Assembly (NCBI GenBank): GCA_016186945.1
Contig: JACPKR010000060.1
Location: 1 to 35,874, forward strand
Length of the DNA stretch: 35,874 nucleotides
Source of the DNA: Deltaproteobacteria bacterium
Lineage (GTDB): Bacteria; Bdellovibrionota_B; Oligoflexia; Oligoflexales; Bog-1112
Reading direction: 5' to 3'
The position numbers and the translations under genes were made by a program. Under the pieces are notes generated by a model, which saw only the letters and a list, made by a program, of their open reading frames with translations, was not told the origin of the DNA and did no database searches. Of the stretch, positions 9,547 through 32,931 are shown piece after piece (position 1 is the stretch's first letter; each line of letters starts with the position of its first letter).

Positions 9547-11124
9547 ATGGAAATTTTCGACGTTGTTGTGATCGGAAGCGGTTTTGGGGGAAGCGTCTCT
9601 GCGATGCGACTTGCGCAGAAAGGTTACAAAGTCGCGATCCTTGAGATGGGAAAACGATACCGGCCCAAGGATTTTCCCAAAACAAATTGGAACGTCAAAA
9701 AATATTTCTGGTTTCCCTTGCTCCGTTGTTTCGGCTTTCAGAAAATTACCCTCCTCAAGAAAATCATGGTCCTCCACGGTGTGGGTGTGGGAGGGGGGAG
9801 TCTAGTTTATGCCGCGACACTTCCTCGTCCACTTTCCAAGTGTTTCGAAAGCAAAGCCTGGCCAGGCTCCATAAATTGGAGGGAAGAATTGGTTCGCTGG
9901 TACGAAACTGCTGAAACGATGCTGGGAGTCGCGAAAAACCCGAAAATGTTTGAGGGTGAAAAAGTCTTGGCAGACCTAGGTCAAGAGTTGGGCTGCGATG
10001 AAACATACGGACCCACAGATGTCGGCATCTACTTTGAAAAGCCAGGCGAAACGGTAAGCGACCCGTACTTCGGAGGAGACGGTCCCGATAGAACGGGCTG
10101 CATCCATTGCGGTGCCTGTATGATCGGGTGCCCCCATGGGTCAAAAAATACACTCGACTTCAATTACCTGTATTTTGCAGAGAAGTGGGGAGCACAAGTC
10201 TTTCCCGAAACAAAAGCTACCGTGATAACCCCTCCGAAGCATGAGAACGAACCCTACGTTATCGCAACAGTGTCTTCCACAAAGTGGTTCAGAAAGAAAG
10301 GACCTTCGTTTAAGGCAAGAAAAGTGATTTTGGCGGCAGGAGTGCTGGGGACGGTCGAACTCCTTTTAAAAAACAGGGACATTTACAAAACACTTCCCAA
10401 CCTTTCCCCCCAGCTCGGAAAAACGGTGCGCACCAATGGGGAATGTTTGTTGGGTGCTACAAGTCTGGAGAGCACGCACAATCTCTCCCAAGGAATTGCG
10501 ATCGGTGCCTCCATCAATGCAGGGGAGGAGATAAAAATCGAGCAGGTCCGTTACCCCAAAGGAAGCAGCGCCATGAGGTTGCTAGCAGTCCCCCTGACGG
10601 GAAAAGGGAACTTCCTCGTCAGACCACTCAAACTACTTGCCAACATTGTCCTCCACTTGCCGACTTTGCTCCGTCTGCTCACCGTATGGGATTGGGCGAG
10701 CCGTACGGTGATCCTTCTTGTGATGCAGACGAGCGATACGGAGCTGAACTTGACACTGTCGCGATCGCTTTTCAGTGGGTTTAGAAAGGTTCTCTCAGGC
10801 TTTTCCGTAGGGAACGCGGTTCCCACATTCATGCCACTCGCTCAACGAGCCGCGAAATTTGTCGCGAAACGGATAAACGGAATTGCTCAGAATGCGATCT
10901 CCGAAGTACTGCTTGACACACCGCTGACTGCACACATCCTTGGGGGGGCGGTTTTAGCGGATTCTCCCGAAGAGGGAGTGGTTGACACTCACCATCAGGT
11001 GTTTGGCTACAAAGGACTTTACATCTGTGATGGGAGTGTCGTTCCCGCTAATCTTGGGGCTAATCCCAGTTTGACTATCACTGCACTTGCGGAAAGATTC
11101 TGCAGCCTCATCCCACGTCACTGA
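9547..11124 (+). CDS. GMC / cholesterol-oxidase-like FAD oxidoreductase
   Basis: The 525-residue flavoenzyme starts with a classic FAD-binding Rossmann motif (VVVIGSGFGGSVSA, 7-20, with the acidic residue in ILEMG at 31-35). It has the GVGVGGGSLVY block at about 78-88 and ends with DGSVVPANLGANPSLT, the flavin-contacting C-terminal signature of GMC and cholesterol-oxidase-like enzymes. Residues 185-195 read C-x2-C-x2-C-x3-C followed by P, a ferredoxin-like spacing. Comparable Cys-rich stretches occur in ChoD-like relatives. The substrate is probably an alcohol or sterol-like molecule and is not predictable. The ATG follows a GGGGGAGGG ribosome-binding site. The 3' end overlaps batE head to head. 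Confidence 0.85.
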   Translation: MEIFDVVVIGSGFGGSVSAMRLAQKGYKVAILEMGKRYRPKDFPKTNWNVKKYFWFPLLRCFGFQKITLLKKIMVLHGVGVGGGSLVYAATLPRPLSKCFESKAWPGSINWREELVRWYETAETMLGVAKNPKMFEGEKVLADLGQELGCDETYGPTDVGIYFEKPGETVSDPYFGGDGPDRTGCIHCGACMIGCPHGSKNTLDFNYLYFAEKWGAQVFPETKATVITPPKHENEPYVIATVSSTKWFRKKGPSFKARKVILAAGVLGTVELLLKNRDIYKTLPNLSPQLGKTVRTNGECLLGATSLESTHNLSQGIAIGASINAGEEIKIEQVRYPKGSSAMRLLAVPLTGKGNFLVRPLKLLANIVLHLPTLLRLLTVWDWASRTVILLVMQTSDTELNLTLSRSLFSGFRKVLSGFSVGNAVPTFMPLAQRAAKFVAKRINGIAQNAISEVLLDTPLTAHILGGAVLADSPEEGVVDTHHQVFGYKGLYICDGSVVPANLGANPSLTITALAERFCSLIPRH

Positions 11125-23920: not shown

Positions 23921-25126
23921 TTGGAGCATGGCCACGAACGATCATCACGGTTACCAGGATTTTACACTCTTCCTATTAGCGAACGTGCAAAACTCGCCGC
24001 CCGATTTAGCGGCCTGAGTGAAGAAGAGGCACTATCTCTCAGCGGGCTTGGCTCTTTGACGGGGGAGTTGGTCGATATTTTTATTGAAAATGCGGTGGGC
24101 AGTTTCAGCTTGCCTTTGGGTATTGCCACAAACTTCTGCGTAAATGGGAAGGATGTTCTGGTGCCAATGGCGGTGGAAGAGACCAGCGTCGTTGCGGCGG
24201 CAAGTCACGGGGCGAAACTTGCTCGTTTTGGCGGCGGTTTCCGCACACGAAGTTCCGAGCCGATCATGACAGGGCAGATCCAGCTTTACCTGAAACATGA
24301 GGTTGATTTCGACCGCATCCTTACAGAGGAGAAGGAGAGTCTTCTTGAGTATGCCAACCGCGGGCAAGACCGGCTTCTGAAAAGGGGCGGTGGGGCGAAG
24401 GACTTGACCTGGTATTTCATCCCAGAAATTCAAAGTTTAGTTGTCCTTCTTCACATCAATACAGTCGACGCTATGGGTGCGAACATCGTGAACACGATGG
24501 TGGAAAAGCTTTCCGCCTTCATGCCCGGACTCATAACCGGGTGCGAAGTTGGCCTGCGCATCCTGACTAACCTGACAGAACGTCGCTTGGCTTATGCGGA
24601 ATGTACGATTCCTGCAGAAGCGTTTCGCCATACGACCTTTGAAGGGCATCATGTCGTCGATAAGATCGTCGGTGCGTGGGCTTTCGCCTGGCACGATACT
24701 CACCGTGCAACGACCCACAACAAAGGGGTTATGAACGGGATCGACCCCGTACTGATCGCTACTGGAAACGACTGGCGTGCCATTGAAGCGGGTGCCCACG
24801 CCTTCTGCTGTCGCGAAGGCAAGTACCGCCCCATGACCACTTGGAAAAAAACTAAGGAGGGGCACCTCCACGGCAGCATTGAAGTTCCGATGGCTGTAGG
24901 TACCGTGGGGGGAGTGACAAAATTGCATCCCACGGCGCAGGCGGCTCTGAAACTTCTTGGCCACCCCGGCGCTCAGGAATTAGCGGAGATCATTTGCGCC
25001 GTGGGCCTTGCCCAAAACCTCTCTGCGCTCAGGGCCTTGGCCACCGAGGGAATCCAGCACGGGCATATGGGCCTACATCAAAAAAACATCGACCTTTTGC
25101 AAAAGCAAATGCGGGCTATTCAATAA
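23921..25126 (+). CDS. mvaA: Class II HMG-CoA reductase
   Basis: The 401-residue enzyme interconverts HMG-CoA and mevalonate. It opens SRLPGFYTL, and has VPMAVEETSVVAAAS (81-95) with the catalytic Glu, DAMGAN (183-188) of the NAD(H) site typical of class II, Lys268, Asp284 and His382 (GHMGLH). These residues correspond closely to the catalytic Lys267, Asp283 and His381 of the Pseudomonas mevalonii enzyme. The start is TTG 23921, the only start codon in the open frame; AGGGAG lies about 10 nt upstream. There is no other mevalonate-pathway gene in the window. A biosynthetic role in isoprenoid supply (quinone side chains) is inferred from the neighbouring menaquinone gene. Confidence 0.92.
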   Translation: MEHGHERSSRLPGFYTLPISERAKLAARFSGLSEEEALSLSGLGSLTGELVDIFIENAVGSFSLPLGIATNFCVNGKDVLVPMAVEETSVVAAASHGAKLARFGGGFRTRSSEPIMTGQIQLYLKHEVDFDRILTEEKESLLEYANRGQDRLLKRGGGAKDLTWYFIPEIQSLVVLLHINTVDAMGANIVNTMVEKLSAFMPGLITGCEVGLRILTNLTERRLAYAECTIPAEAFRHTTFEGHHVVDKIVGAWAFAWHDTHRATTHNKGVMNGIDPVLIATGNDWRAIEAGAHAFCCREGKYRPMTTWKKTKEGHLHGSIEVPMAVGTVGGVTKLHPTAQAALKLLGHPGAQELAEIICAVGLAQNLSALRALATEGIQHGHMGLHQKNIDLLQKQMRAIQ

Positions 25127-25162
25127 CTGGAAAGCACCTGTTTGCGTTTAGGAAAGGAATCC

Positions 25163-27307
25163 ATGGATTCGTTTTTTAGGGTTAAAGAAAAGGTTCTCAG
25201 CGGTGAGCGACTTACCGAGTCCGATGCTGTAACCCTCTTTGAAACACCCTACATATATGAGCTGGGTGCCTTAGCGGACCAGGCGAATCTGCAAAAAAAT
25301 CATAAGTCAGTCTTCTACAACCTCAACTCTCATCTTAATCCGACAAATATTTGTGTCATGAGTTGCAAGTTTTGCAGTTTTGCGCGCAAGCCAGGTGATG
25401 AAGGGGCCTTCGCCTATTCACTTGAGGAAATCGTTTCGAAAGCGGAAGTGGCCGCAAGAAACGGGGCAAAGGAAATCCATATGGTGGGAGGCCTCCACCC
25501 TCGTTGGAAACTCGACTACTACGCTGACATGTTCCGCTCCATCAAGGAACGCTTCCCGTCTGTCCATATAAAAGCACTTACGGCAGTGGAAATAGACTGG
25601 CTGTCTCGCAAGTCACGCAAGAGTCACGAAGAAACTCTGCTTTTCCTGAAAGAAGCAGGGCTTGACTCCTTGCCAGGCGGGGGGGCTGAAATCTTCCACC
25701 CAGACTGTCGGGAGCTAATTACCGCCAAGCTCTCCACCGAAAATTGGCTTGCCATTCACAGAACCGCACACGGTCTGGGATTAAAATCGAATTGCACCAT
25801 GCTTTACGGACATGTGGAAACCTACATTCATCGAGCCTATCATTTGCAAAAGCTTCGTGAACTGCAAGATGAAACAAACGGATTCAATTGTTTCATTCCG
25901 CTCGCCTTTCAACCTCATAATAATGAAATGGGGATCAGCCGTTACACCTACGGGGTCGATGATCTGAAGACGATAGCTGTAGCCCGCCTCTTTCTCGACA
26001 ACTTCAAGTCGATCAAGGCATTCTGGGTCATGCTGGGTCAGGATATAGCCCAGGTGGCACTTCATTTTGGAGCGAACGATTGCGACGGCACAGTACTAGA
26101 TGAAAAAATTTCCCTAATGGCTGGTGGGCGTTCGGGAGCAGGGATGATGCAAAAAGACATCAAACAATTGATCGTAAAAGCGCAACGCTATCCTCAGGAA
26201 CGAGATACGATCTACAACATTATCGGTAGTCAGCTCAGTAAACAATTGGATCCCGCGGTCAAGCCGCGGGATGACAATGGAGAGGACGAGTGCCCGGACA
26301 CCGTGACTTATCTGCTCAATCAGGCTGCGGAAGCTAAGGAGCTTTCTTCTGACGAGTTGCTGCGCGTAGCCAAAACATCTGATTTTGTCACCCTTACCCT
26401 CGTCGCAGACCACGTCAAGAAACGATTGAATGGTGCGGTCGTAACTTATTGCCCCGGAAAGGTCTTCGACGTATCGACCTTGCTGGATGGCTCCGTGGGA
26501 AGTCCCGCGGTCGCAAGGTCCCTTGTGTTTGATGTCGCGGGCTTTGCAAATTTACAGGGGCATAGCGTTTCTCTGGAGAAGCTTCTTGCCTTGGTCGCGC
26601 GTTATCGGGGACCAGGCATGAGCCTTGGACTTGCGGGTTTCTGTGGGCTTTGGGCGCTAGCCCAGGCTGAATCCCTACCTTTGGGAGAACTTTTCAAGCG
26701 CCTGGCGCGCGGAGGTATTTCGGTGATCCTCCCCTCGTCTCAGGAGAACGAGTCAGGGCTAACGAATAGCGAAATGATGAACCTGCACCGCTTGGCTCAT
26801 AGCAAGGGTATACAAACTGTGGCGAAGGTGGAAATTTGCTGCCCCCTTACGGATCCAGCTCCGCTTTGGAAGCCCTTTTTCGATCGTCTGCTAGCGTTTC
26901 GGGAGCTGCAGAAGACGTCTCCCGGTATCCTTGCTTTTGCTATCGAACCGGCCCACGAAAGTTGGGTGACAGCTTACGAAGTGTTACAAGCAGTCGCCCT
27001 GGGAAGGATTGCCCTGCAAGGTGTACAGCACCTGATCTGCCCCGTAGCGGCGCTGCCCACAAGCCAGGAGAGAACGAAGGCTGAAGCTGGAACTTTCCTT
27101 AAAGGACAAGAGAAGTACGCCCCCCTGGCATTGGTGGGCGGGGCAGACGATTGGGGCATGGTGCCCCCTGATAGTGTAGCTGTCATTGGGGAAGAAATCG
27201 CGTCTGTGAAATTGGAGGCCCGCCAACGCGATTTGCTTTTTCAAATGCCTGTGATAAAGAGCGAAGGCAAACAAGCTGGAGAACTCACCCATGAACCTTA
27301 TCCTTGA
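25163..27307 (+). CDS. mqnE: MqnE-like aminofutalosine synthase with a second, cysteine-less domain
   Basis: The ATG at 25163 with GGAAAGGA just before it is preferred to TTG 25142. Residues 1-355 are a full MqnE-type radical SAM enzyme: CxxxCxxC at Cys64, Cys68 and Cys71, MVGGLHP (107-113), LDSLPGGGAEI and the C-terminal AGGRSGAGM. MqnE makes aminofutalosine from SAM in the futalosine menaquinone route. Residues about 380-714 continue with a second barrel-like half that starts like MqnC (SSDELLRVAKTSDFVTL, VVTYC) but has no CxxxCxxC cluster. The linker (362-372) is encoded by a palindromic repeat. MqnE alone is usually about 370 residues, so this is a fusion. The stop overlaps the dedA-family gene by 17 nt. 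Confidence 0.88.
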   Translation: MDSFFRVKEKVLSGERLTESDAVTLFETPYIYELGALADQANLQKNHKSVFYNLNSHLNPTNICVMSCKFCSFARKPGDEGAFAYSLEEIVSKAEVAARNGAKEIHMVGGLHPRWKLDYYADMFRSIKERFPSVHIKALTAVEIDWLSRKSRKSHEETLLFLKEAGLDSLPGGGAEIFHPDCRELITAKLSTENWLAIHRTAHGLGLKSNCTMLYGHVETYIHRAYHLQKLRELQDETNGFNCFIPLAFQPHNNEMGISRYTYGVDDLKTIAVARLFLDNFKSIKAFWVMLGQDIAQVALHFGANDCDGTVLDEKISLMAGGRSGAGMMQKDIKQLIVKAQRYPQERDTIYNIIGSQLSKQLDPAVKPRDDNGEDECPDTVTYLLNQAAEAKELSSDELLRVAKTSDFVTLTLVADHVKKRLNGAVVTYCPGKVFDVSTLLDGSVGSPAVARSLVFDVAGFANLQGHSVSLEKLLALVARYRGPGMSLGLAGFCGLWALAQAESLPLGELFKRLARGGISVILPSSQENESGLTNSEMMNLHRLAHSKGIQTVAKVEICCPLTDPAPLWKPFFDRLLAFRELQKTSPGILAFAIEPAHESWVTAYEVLQAVALGRIALQGVQHLICPVAALPTSQERTKAEAGTFLKGQEKYAPLALVGGADDWGMVPPDSVAVIGEEIASVKLEARQRDLLFQMPVIKSEGKQAGELTHEPYP
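26246..26276 (+). repeat. Palindromic repeat inserted in frame in mqnE
   Basis: Perfect 9-bp arms ATCCCGCGG (26250-26258) and CCGCGGGAT (26264-26272) flank TCAAG. Together with TTGG and GACA they form the TGGATCCCGCGGTCAAG...GATGACA motif known as an interspersed palindrome in many bacteria. It is read as LDPAVKPRDDN without a stop and lies exactly between the two halves of the protein. Confidence 0.8.
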
Positions 27308-28565: not shown

Positions 28566-31334
28566 TCACAAACGCCAGAGCTTGATCCCCCTTGTTTCCG
28601 CTTCTTGTCGATCAAAGATGCCTTTCAAATCAACAAGAAGTTTAGCTGGAGATAATTTCGCAAGGATGGAATCCCAGGATAGTCCGCTTACAAATTCCTT
28701 ATGCCTGACCGCACCTATAATTGCATCGCAGACGGGCACTTCCTCCCACTTTGTCAGCGTCCGTTGATACTCCTTGTGAAATTCCTCCTCATAACAGACA
28801 GGATCAACACAGAAAACTTTGACACCGAATTCTTCCAGCGACTGAACGACATCAACAACCTTTGTGTTACGAAGGTCGGGAACATTTTCCTTGAACGTCA
28901 TACCCAACACGGCGACTTTAAGCTTATCTCTCCCCACCTGAGTATGATTAAGGATAAGTTTCATTGTTTTCTGTGCGACGAAAGCGCCCATAGAATCGTT
29001 GATACGTCGGCCTGCCAAGACCAGTTGGGGGTGGAAGCCCAGACCTTTTGCCACATGCGTTAAGTAGTAGGGATCCACACCGATACAGTTATGGGTTATA
29101 ATTCCGCCATCGGTAACGACTGCATGTGTGCCTTCGACTTCGAGGGAATAAACGGTATCAAGCACGATTTGCTCAATCTTCTTTATCGGTGCGGTTACAT
29201 AACCCCGGTAACGTTCAAATATCTTACTTCTTGGGAAACGCACTTTATTTGTGAGATAAACAGCTAGTTTTTTCTTTTTAGAATCTAAGAAACAATCATA
29301 CAGTTTTTCCAGGTTTTCTGTGCCATGAACCTCAAGAAGAAGGTCTCTTTTGCTTCTGTTAAAAGAAATGGCAAAATTCATAAACAGTAGTTCGACGCCG
29401 TGAATTAATTCGGGGCTAATAGAAAAATAACTTATCGAGGTTATCTTTCGCCTATGAGAATATTTTTTGCCATTTTTTACATAAGGACGGCGTGAATCCT
29501 CGAATTTAACACCACCATCGCCACAAAGCAGGCCCTTTAATACGTTCCAGCGTATCTCTTGAGAACCATATAACATTTCTTCTGGTATGCGGGCATCCTC
29601 ACTTCTAACGCCGCAGTTTAAAATTGTTTCCAGTAAAAAACTTAATAGCTCGGACGATGCTTTGATAGTCGTAGCTTGAAAAGTCTTGTCCTGATAGATG
29701 CTTAGTCTATGTAGGCCCATGCCTTTGAGCAATTGGCTGCAATCCGCTATTGTTTCATGCTCCGACCTATTGAAAGTGAAGCAAACCCGGGCTGAACCAT
29801 CGTGGCTAATGCACCCCTCGGACAAGTAATATCCGACTAGCCGGGCAAGATCAGGCGTAATAGGTATGACTGCGGGAAGCATTTGAAACGAACCCCCGCC
29901 TCTGCCACTTACCAGCATAAGTTCTCGTCGGGCAACAGGCATAAAGCCGCTAGCTTCCAGCTTCAAAAAAACCTCTAGCGGAAGATAATCGAGGTTATAA
30001 AAATTGGAAGCTTTCTTTCCCGTGTTCTTTTTTATCTGCAAAACGTCTTTAATTTCTCTCCATGTTCCTGCTTTTCTTTTTACTCTATAGCGGGAATGCC
30101 ATGCCGTAGGTATTTCCCCTATCAAGTCGATTGAGGTCCGAATACCATCTCGGCTTGGCAAGTCTTGCAGGAGTGGGATTCTGTCTCCCACGACTACATT
30201 TTCCGCTAACTTCACAAACCATTCACCGGATTCATCTATCACCATAGGGTGTTTGCTGGTTATCTCTATGGAATGATGGGCCCCGGTTGTTATTTTAAGC
30301 CCTGGCTTGCTGCCACTTTTAGAAAAAAAGGCGACCTTTGCTAAAACTGCTTTGCCAACCGTGCGATCGAACGAAAGAGTTTGGATTGGTTCAAGTGGTT
30401 TAATAATTTCGGTGTCACCTACCTTCAGAACCCTACCCTTTTTCCTCTCAACCAATTCATTCCAATAAGTTTCAAAACTTCTTATTTTATGATGTCCGTG
30501 ATTAACGAGTGTTAGGGTATGCTTGCCAGAGTAGCAGTGCCCTCCCACAAGCCCTGGTGTGAAAGGCAGGAAATTCCATTTCGTGCCTGCTGCGGCTAAA
30601 ACATCCTGAGTGTCTAAGCCTAGGCGATCAAACAGCATGGCCAGCTCGTTAATCAAGGCAACGTTCAAATCCCTCTGCGTGTTCTCAATGACTTTCGCTG
30701 CTTCTGCAGTTGCGATATTGGGGGCCGTGTGGATCCCCCCCTCGATCACACTTCCATAAATGCTGGTGACAAGTTCCAAAACTTCAGGAGATGAAGCAGA
30801 GACCACTTTCTTGATGCGTTCAATAGTATGCTCACGATCGCCAGGATTTACCCGCTCGGGAGAATAGGCAAGGTGGAAGTCAACTTGGTATTTCAAACCG
30901 TTCGCTTCGAGGACTTGTCGACAATCGTTCTCCGTACAACCAGGGTAAACTGTCGACTCGTATACGACGACAGTCCCTTTCCTCATATGTTCGCTTATCG
31001 TGCGGGATGCTGACAGGAGCGGGGAAAGGTCTGGAATCTTGAACCTGTCGACTGGTGTAGGTACCGTTACGATGATGACAGGACTCTCACCCAAACACTC
31101 GGGGCGATCGGTATAACTTATGTTGCGTGCCAGAAGTGTCTCGGGTTCGGGAACCTCCCTGGTACGGTCGTAACCTCTCCTCAATTCTTCCACGCGGCCA
31201 CTGTCAATATCAAAACCAACAACTCTGAATTTCTTCGCCAGCAGACAAGCTAAGGGCAAGCCGACGTAACCCAACCCTACAATAGCTATGGGATCCTTCT
31301 TGTCTGAGAGCCTTGCCAATATATGGGAATCCAT
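28566..31334 (-). CDS. tviB: UDP-sugar 6-dehydrogenase (TviB/WbpA type) interrupted by an intein
   Basis: The 922-codon frame contains a 439-residue host enzyme and a 483-residue intein (residues 267-749). The host has a Rossmann GLGYVGLP (20-27), TVPTPVD, YESTVYPGCTE, AEAAKVIENTQRDLN, KWNFLPFTPGLVGGH|CIGVDPYYLTH and GMTFKENVPDLRNTK. These closely follow TviB/WbpA, which oxidise UDP-GlcNAc-type sugars to uronic acids; a UDP-glucose substrate cannot be excluded. The catalytic Cys750 is also the +1 residue for splicing, so the precursor is inactive until spliced. The ATG has an AGGAAGG ribosome-binding site and the gene follows the epimerase by 13 nt. Confidence 0.93.
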   Translation of the reverse strand: MDSHILARLSDKKDPIAIVGLGYVGLPLACLLAKKFRVVGFDIDSGRVEELRRGYDRTREVPEPETLLARNISYTDRPECLGESPVIIVTVPTPVDRFKIPDLSPLLSASRTISEHMRKGTVVVYESTVYPGCTENDCRQVLEANGLKYQVDFHLAYSPERVNPGDREHTIERIKKVVSASSPEVLELVTSIYGSVIEGGIHTAPNIATAEAAKVIENTQRDLNVALINELAMLFDRLGLDTQDVLAAAGTKWNFLPFTPGLVGGHCYSGKHTLTLVNHGHHKIRSFETYWNELVERKKGRVLKVGDTEIIKPLEPIQTLSFDRTVGKAVLAKVAFFSKSGSKPGLKITTGAHHSIEITSKHPMVIDESGEWFVKLAENVVVGDRIPLLQDLPSRDGIRTSIDLIGEIPTAWHSRYRVKRKAGTWREIKDVLQIKKNTGKKASNFYNLDYLPLEVFLKLEASGFMPVARRELMLVSGRGGGSFQMLPAVIPITPDLARLVGYYLSEGCISHDGSARVCFTFNRSEHETIADCSQLLKGMGLHRLSIYQDKTFQATTIKASSELLSFLLETILNCGVRSEDARIPEEMLYGSQEIRWNVLKGLLCGDGGVKFEDSRRPYVKNGKKYSHRRKITSISYFSISPELIHGVELLFMNFAISFNRSKRDLLLEVHGTENLEKLYDCFLDSKKKKLAVYLTNKVRFPRSKIFERYRGYVTAPIKKIEQIVLDTVYSLEVEGTHAVVTDGGIITHNCIGVDPYYLTHVAKGLGFHPQLVLAGRRINDSMGAFVAQKTMKLILNHTQVGRDKLKVAVLGMTFKENVPDLRNTKVVDVVQSLEEFGVKVFCVDPVCYEEEFHKEYQRTLTKWEEVPVCDAIIGAVRHKEFVSGLSWDSILAKLSPAKLLVDLKGIFDRQEAETRGIKLWRL
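29088..30536 (-). mobile_element. Intein with LAGLIDADG homing endonuclease
   Basis: The insert runs from Cys267 (block A, CYSGKHTL) to Asn749, with the terminal block VYSLEVEGTHAVV...IITHN just before Cys750. Penultimate His748 and Asn749 are the canonical C-terminal splicing residues. Block B has ITTGAHHSIEITSKHP with His362. A homing endonuclease of the DOD class is seen in LVGYYLSEG (499-507, acid Glu506) and LKGLLCGDG (599-607, acid Asp606). The catalytic acids are present, so the endonuclease may still be active. The insert DNA is visibly more AT-rich than its flanks, suggesting acquisition by transfer. A UDP-glucose dehydrogenase intein is known from Methanocaldococcus jannaschii. Confidence 0.95.
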
Positions 31335-31347
31335 AAACCTTCCTTTG

Positions 31348-32295
31348 TTAATGTGCTTCTTGATACCATCGCACGAATTGCGGAATACCCTGCTCTAAGT
31401 TAACGGTGGGTTTGTACCCCAAGTCTTCCCGGGCTGCGCTCGTGTCGGCGAAGGTCTCTTCCACATCTCCTGGTTGAATAGGGAGAAATTCTTTCTTCGC
31501 ATCCACGCCCAAAGCTTTCTCCAACATGGCGATCATATCTTTGAGCAGCTCTTTTTTTCCCCGACCCAAGTTGTAAACTTTATTCATCTGAGGGTGTGAA
31601 AGAGCGGACAATACTCCATCCACAATGTCATCAATGTACGTAAAATCGCGAATCATGTTGCCATAATTATAGATTTCAATCGCCTCGCCCTTTAACATTC
31701 TGTGTGCAAATTTAAAGAGGGCCATGTCAGGACGTCCGTGGGGCCCATAGACCGTGAAAAAGCGAAGGCCGGTGTTCTTAATACCGTAAAGGTGGCCGTA
31801 GGTTCTTGCTACTAACTCGTTCGCCAGCTTCGTTGCTGCATAAAGGCTTATGGGGTGGGACACATTCTGTTTCTCGTGAAAGGGAAATTCCTTGTTCCCC
31901 CCATATACGGAACTGGATGAGGCATAGACAAAGTGTTCGGGTTGACTGTGCCTCACAAGTTCGATGATATTTTGAAACCCGACCACGTTCGATTGAATGT
32001 ACGCATGAGGATGTTCCAGGGAATAACGAACACCGGCCTGAGCTGCTAAATGAAGGACATGGCTAGGCTCGAAATTTCTATACGACGCGGAGAGGAGATC
32101 CTCATTTTCGAGCAGCCCTTTTCGGAAAGTAAAGCGATCGAAGTCATGGAGCAACGACAACCTGTTTTCCTTATATTTGGGGTCGTAGTAGTTGTTGACA
32201 GCATCATAACCAAAGACTTCATGCCCTTTCTTCAGTAGGGCCAATGCTGTATGGAAACCAATAAAACCGGCTGCTCCTGTCAGGAATACTTTCAT
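31348..32295 (-). CDS. UDP-glucuronate 4-epimerase-like SDR
   Basis: The 315-residue protein is an extended short-chain dehydrogenase. It has GAAGFIG (7-13), the DxxNNYYDPxYKxxRL segment typical of UDP-glucuronate 4-epimerases, a Ser cluster at 127-129 and the catalytic Tyr152-x3-Lys156 (YAATK), and RDFTYIDDIV. The product is the C4 epimer of a UDP-uronic acid. Paired with the upstream-acting dehydrogenase it would supply UDP-galacturonate or its N-acetyl form for a surface polysaccharide. The ATG has an AAGGAAG ribosome-binding site, and it lies 6 nt after tmk. Confidence 0.92.
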   Translation of the reverse strand: MKVFLTGAAGFIGFHTALALLKKGHEVFGYDAVNNYYDPKYKENRLSLLHDFDRFTFRKGLLENEDLLSASYRNFEPSHVLHLAAQAGVRYSLEHPHAYIQSNVVGFQNIIELVRHSQPEHFVYASSSSVYGGNKEFPFHEKQNVSHPISLYAATKLANELVARTYGHLYGIKNTGLRFFTVYGPHGRPDMALFKFAHRMLKGEAIEIYNYGNMIRDFTYIDDIVDGVLSALSHPQMNKVYNLGRGKKELLKDMIAMLEKALGVDAKKEFLPIQPGDVEETFADTSAAREDLGYKPTVNLEQGIPQFVRWYQEAH

Positions 32296-32301
32296 CTTCC
32301 T

Positions 32302-32931
32302 TCACTCGCCTTTCCTTGCGAAAATACGTTTCACAGCAAGATCAACGAGAACATCGGCTGTCTGGCTAGCGTCCAGCACCACAAACCTATCCCGAAACTC
32401 TTTCGCCAACTGAAGGTATGCGTCCCGAATCAACTGATGGTGTTGACGTTGCGCCGTGTCGAAACGGGTCTGCCTGATCCCTTCAGACGTCCTTTTTTTT
32501 ACGCGACTGAGAGCGATATCAACATCGCAATCAAGGAGAAAGGTGAGGGTGGGTTGGAGTCCAGAAGTGGAGAAGGGCACCACCCGATCGAGCATGTCCC
32601 GTGTTATGCCCCCGAGTACACCTTGGTAAACGTAGGTCGAATCGAAAAAGCGATCAGAGATAACCCAGTCCCCTCGCGCCAGAGCTGGTTTGATTCTGTA
32701 GGCTACGTGCTGAGCACGCGCCGCGGAAACAAGGAGAAATTCACCTTCAGGCGTGAAGGGGTCGTCTTCCGGAGGATGGTTAAAAAGAGAGCGCAAGCTT
32801 TCTCCCAGAGGGCTGCCCCCCGGCTCTCTTGTTACAACGGTACTCTGCCTTGCGTTCTTCAATTCAGCAGCAAGGCCCTTGACGAACAAGGACTTCCCGA
32901 CACCTTCTCCACCTTCTACACTTATAAACAT
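32302..32931 (-). CDS. tmk: Thymidylate kinase
   Basis: The 209-residue P-loop kinase phosphorylates dTMP to dTDP. It shows the P-loop EGGEGVGKS (6-14), TREPGGSPLGE, the DRFFDSTYVYQG block and the lid RVKKRTSEG. The length is standard. It is the first gene of an operon with the two UDP-sugar genes, and a sigma70-like promoter lies upstream. The combination of a nucleotide kinase with sugar-nucleotide genes is probably just operon sharing. Confidence 0.96.
   Translation of the reverse strand: MFISVEGGEGVGKSLFVKGLAAELKNARQSTVVTREPGGSPLGESLRSLFNHPPEDDPFTPEGEFLLVSAARAQHVAYRIKPALARGDWVISDRFFDSTYVYQGVLGGITRDMLDRVVPFSTSGLQPTLTFLLDCDVDIALSRVKKRTSEGIRQTRFDTAQRQHHQLIRDAYLQLAKEFRDRFVVLDASQTADVLVDLAVKRIFARKGE

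Follow-up and report, generated by a model that had tools for sequence, protein, structure and literature searches.

Inteins in bacterial UDP-sugar dehydrogenases are already on record, and the one described here adds one bacterial lineage to them. For a 'udp' intein allele, Soucy et al. (2014, PMC4071816) list as carriers 7 Halobacteria, 6 further members of the Euryarchaeota, and 2 bacteria, namely Dictyoglomus thermophilum and a Fervidibacteria bacterium. This allele, which includes the intein of Methanocaldococcus jannaschii, lies in the same enzyme superfamily as the host studied here, although the 'udp' hosts are annotated in that report as UDP-glucose 6-dehydrogenases and our host is TviB-like. 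The allele likely sits at the same insertion residue as our intein. Throughout this superfamily of NDP-sugar dehydrogenases, the cysteine of the GGXC motif is the covalent catalyst, or catalytic thiol (PMC4794789).

The window (the whole stretch of DNA that was analyzed, 35,874 nucleotides long) contains a single 922-amino-acid (aa) open reading frame (ORF) at positions 28566 to 31334 of the minus strand that encodes the precursor of a UDP-sugar dehydrogenase. An insert at 29088 to 30536 translates without a stop, starts with CYSGKHTLTL, and ends with GGIITHN, with GLVGGH before it and CIGVDPYY after it. Translation bore out the coordinates, the 483-residue length, and the exact junctions that the earlier note had assigned to it. 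The features of the locus are as follows.

31348..32295, minus strand: NAD-dependent sugar-nucleotide epimerase/dehydratase, adjoining the dehydrogenase upstream (PF01370, E = 4.6e-55)
30537..31334, minus strand: N-extein, host residues 1 to 266, covering the NAD-binding domain and the larger part of the central domain, ending in GLVGGH
29088..30536, minus strand: intein of 483 aa (C1 to H482-N483) with a LAGLIDADG homing endonuclease domain, residues 267 to 749 of the precursor
30162..30536, minus strand: N-terminal splicing half, about intein residues 1 to 125, with Cys1 and block B (T93-x-x-H96), from the same-site alignment and PDB profile matches (edge approximate)
29247..29855, minus strand: LAGLIDADG endonuclease domain, about intein residues 228 to 430, from PF14528, the PI-PkoII alignment, and the model (edges approximate)
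29088..29219, minus strand: C-terminal splicing half, about intein residues 440 to 483, with block F (YSLEV) and block G (GGIITHN), from TIGR01443 over its cut-off
28566..29087, minus strand: C-extein including the stop codon, with Cys as first residue (codon 29085-29087)

With residues 267 to 749 removed, the host is a protein of 439 aa with a computed mass of 48.8 kDa, and the free intein has a computed mass of 54.7 kDa, in agreement with the values of about 48 and 55 kDa predicted beforehand. The spliced host scores 373.5 bits against the nucleotide sugar dehydrogenase model TIGR03026 (cut-off, 189.8), matching profile positions 3 to 412 of 413, and the solved UDP-ManNAcA dehydrogenase 4r16 aligns across the host junction, where it reads VGGHC; the host without its insert is thus collinear, a result that the earlier note had named as support for the intein call. 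The proposal of a TviB-type host held in part: the best-matching family is the model for the TviB UDP-GlcNAc C-6 dehydrogenase (NF011729), but the score of 425 bits falls under the equivalog cut-off of 592, and on this profile comparison "TviB-type" is a nearest-family label and the host no certified TviB. The same genome carries a second dehydrogenase, uninterrupted and of the GGSCFPKD type, at C42.

The epimerase gene is probably cotranscribed with the intein-bearing dehydrogenase. Its homologue neighbors the uninterrupted dehydrogenase in two related genomes (G007 and G011) and a second dehydrogenase copy in a congener, G001, and the genes further upstream are syntenic with those of the same genus. 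At the corresponding place in G001 (L003), the epimerase is missing and the dehydrogenase directly abuts a homologue of ORF 32302-32931; the G001 epimerase is placed instead beside the second dehydrogenase copy (L015).

The residues of a class 1 intein are complete in the insert: Cys1, the block B TxxH motif (here T93-S-K-H96), H482-N483, and a +1 Cys. In an alignment of 22 same-site inteins, C1, H96, S464, E466, H482, and N483 are invariant. Two LAGLIDADG motifs are present and both keep their acid, E240 in LVGYYLSEG and D340 in LLCGDGG, the first being a Glu rather than an Asp, as it also is in PI-PkoII. The splice residues and endonuclease acids are therefore intact, as first noticed, and the insert is indeed more AT rich than its flanks, with a G+C content of 42.7% compared to 50.8% in the N-extein and 46.9% in the C-extein; all other 1449-bp stretches sampled in the contig have a higher value.

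The identification of the insert as an intein was upheld by profile and structure comparisons. It scores over the cut-off against the NCBIfam intein C-terminal model (intein_Cterm, TIGR01443) and Pfam LAGLIDADG_3 (PF14528) and just under the cut-off of 35.8 against Pfam Intein_splicing (PF14890; E = 2.7e-7, 30.9 bits). These matches are far beyond chance. Models for archaeal proteins that carry inteins, DNA polymerase II and Tes among them, match as well. A PDB search with the single insert sequence gave PI-PkoII as its sole match, and one with a 22-sequence profile gave 18 chains, nearly all of them inteins or intein hosts. An AlphaFold2 model, made with the 22-sequence alignment as input, has a pLDDT of 91 and a pTM of 0.90, and the insert as modeled has the HINT fold. 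The best matches of this model in a Foldseek search of the PDB are intein endonucleases, namely PI-PkoII (E = 2.2e-26), TliVMA, PI-PfuI, PhoVMA, and PI-SceI. PI-PkoII of Thermococcus kodakarensis (2cw7) shares with our intein the combination of intein and LAGLIDADG folds; its YYVSEG and IGDGD motifs align with those of E240 and D340, and the first acid falls in a YY-SEG motif in both proteins. In contrast, the Foldseek identity between the two is only 16%, and PI-PkoII does not come from a sugar dehydrogenase; its host is a DNA polymerase.

Our analysis established the anatomy, the residues, and the modeled fold of the intein, a host that is collinear without it, relatives with the empty site, inteins at the same residue in other phyla, and separate histories for intein and host. 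The insert is almost certainly a full-length class 1 LAGLIDADG intein placed just before the catalytic Cys of its host, and we infer that it splices and cuts DNA in the cell. In the proposed mechanism, Cys1 of the intein would undergo an N-S acyl shift aided by the block B His, the +1 Cys would attack the thioester, and the terminal Asn would cyclize with the assistance of His482. A final S-N shift would restore the catalytic Cys and yield the complete 439-aa enzyme, and the endonuclease would be released as a free 55-kDa protein that could then cut intein-free copies of the conserved dehydrogenase motif and so spread the intein by homing. Since the Cys after the junction is the GGXC/GGHC Cys of the host superfamily, the +1 splicing nucleophile is also the catalytic thiol, and the earlier suggestion that one Cys serves both reactions stands. 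Because of this double role, the precursor is predicted to be inactive, and the unspliced host should lack activity.

Uninterrupted orthologues of the host are found in the same genus, family, and order, with identities of 67%, 62%, and 58%, respectively. The sequence GLVGGHCIGVDPYY is uninterrupted in same-genus G001 and same-family G007, and the junction in the genus, family, and order orthologues always reads PGLVGGHCIGVDPYY. No intein homologue was detected in 57 other genomes of the window's phylum at an E value of 1e-5, which gives no sign of homing inside the lineage. A phage origin of the intein was also considered and is unsupported, as searches of phage records, plasmids, viral contigs, and PHROGs gave no homologue of it; a tblastn search of plasmids with two related inteins likewise gave no same-site relative.

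We scanned 84,980 species genomes with a degenerate DNA pattern (two hydrophobic residues, any residue, H, N, and C, followed by the dehydrogenase motif) and obtained 30 matches (L021 to L050), each a UDP-sugar dehydrogenase frame in which HN immediately precedes the catalytic Cys. Wherever the sequence includes the other end, the first residue of the insert is the Cys of GGHC. As the pattern required particular residues, the count is a lower bound, and at least 30 same-site inteins exist. By record title, 23 are bacterial and 7 archaeal (mostly Woesearchaeota), the bacterial hosts comprising Aquificota, Chloroflexota, Desulfobacterota, Abditibacteriales, Eisenbacteria, Endomicrobia, Paceibacterota, and two further bacteria. 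Nine of the 30 hosts, one of them partial, are bacterial and of the CIGVDPYY (TviB-like) type, with Aquificota, Desulfobacterota, and Paceibacterota among them. The claim that a bacterial TviB-type case would extend this insertion site does not hold in view of these inteins and of the bacterial 'udp' carriers reported in PMC4071816.

The inteins at this residue exist in several states: most are full inteins, and others are endonuclease dead, mini-inteins (175 to 186 aa; L023, L028, and L029), or DUF559 bearing. Our copy falls in the full class and is apparently intact, judged by its residues. A Desulfobacterales metagenome-assembled genome (MAG) has a same-site intein (L038, 3102-4529, plus strand) in which both LAGLIDADG acids are lost (YYLSRGG and LSGGE) and the splice residues are intact; as read from these motifs, it is in the endonuclease-dead state. 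In an Anaerolineae MAG, the same site holds a 329-aa intein (L030, 4049-5035, minus strand) with a DUF559 nuclease domain in place of LAGLIDADG (PF04480, E = 4.5e-28), and the hosts of L023 and L029 are near identical to the L030 host yet carry 186-aa mini-inteins. The insertion residue, the catalytic Cys of an enzyme outside DNA metabolism, carries inteins in small-genome archaea and in no fewer than seven bacterial phyla. Because full-length, endonuclease-dead, mini-, and rearmed (DUF559) forms coexist there, the site lends itself well to tests of the homing cycle and to the study of transfer among distant lineages, among them small-genome bacteria that are probably Patescibacterial.

The closest intein, L045, comes from one such small-genome bacterium of 1.3 Mb (uncultured bacterium Loc090907-8-6m bin-405, CAIZMI010000014.1) and is 57% identical to ours over 483 aligned residues. 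Both are inserted at the identical residue, with a GGHC start and an HN-Cys end, whereas the L045 host is only 47% identical to our host and lies on another branch. In the intein tree, our intein is sister to L045 (support, 100/100), while in the host tree our host is sister to that of the intein-free congener G001 (support, 99/98). Forcing the two intein-bearing hosts into one clade costs 105 log-likelihood units and is rejected by the AU test (p-AU = 2e-58). Since the two trees disagree, the intein moved separately from its gene; by these phylogenies it is a horizontal transfer without the host gene, as expected under homing. No further relative of the intein was found in 379 other genomes of the L045 phylum at an E value of 1e-40. 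Coconversion of flanking DNA from L045 was rejected, as 41 of 60 flanking bases match, compared to 40 to 50 in intein-free relatives.

An alternative is a splicing intein whose endonuclease is dead and which has been inherited vertically after one past transfer, a reading that we regard as possible but rather doubtful. The 57 relatives without copies and the degenerate LAGLIDADG motifs at the same site, such as those of L038, are in its favor; however, our intein retains both acids, its endonuclease region aligns with L045 over the whole length (483 versus 483 residues, at the identity given above), and the domain is modeled with high confidence. Returning to the splicing and homing intein that we prefer, its position before the catalytic thiol raises the question of a redox- or stress-responsive switch, in which the enzyme would stay off until conditions permit splicing. 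Such a switch would fit a host that, given where the insert lies, cannot work unspliced, and it would fit reports of other inteins acting as environmental sensors (PMC6195587), but the sequence gives no sign of conditional splicing. Inteins commonly insert in or close to active sites, a preference explained by conservation and selection (PMC3359363), and a switch is very unlikely. Equally improbable, in our judgment, is the wider proposal of a thiol-based on/off control of surface-polysaccharide precursor synthesis under suitable redox conditions, with selection keeping inteins here in many phyla. An assembly chimera or a nonfunctional insertion that destroyed the gene can be virtually dismissed, for although the genome is a draft in 76 contigs, the frame is open throughout with exact junctions and all splice residues intact, the flanking genes keep the synteny of the genus, and 30 other records hold inteins at this site.

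Two other places in the window are of note. The 721-aa product of 25142-27307 (plus strand) appears to be an unusual fusion, in which the first ~361 residues match the aminofutalosine synthase MqnE over the cut-off, with no Pfam or NCBIfam family matched by the other ~360. At 9547-11124 (plus strand) there is a gene for a GMC-type oxidoreductase whose match to a cholesterol oxidase model is almost full length (E = 2e-172) but under the cut-off; a gene for HMG-CoA reductase lies at 23921-25126 in the same bacterium.
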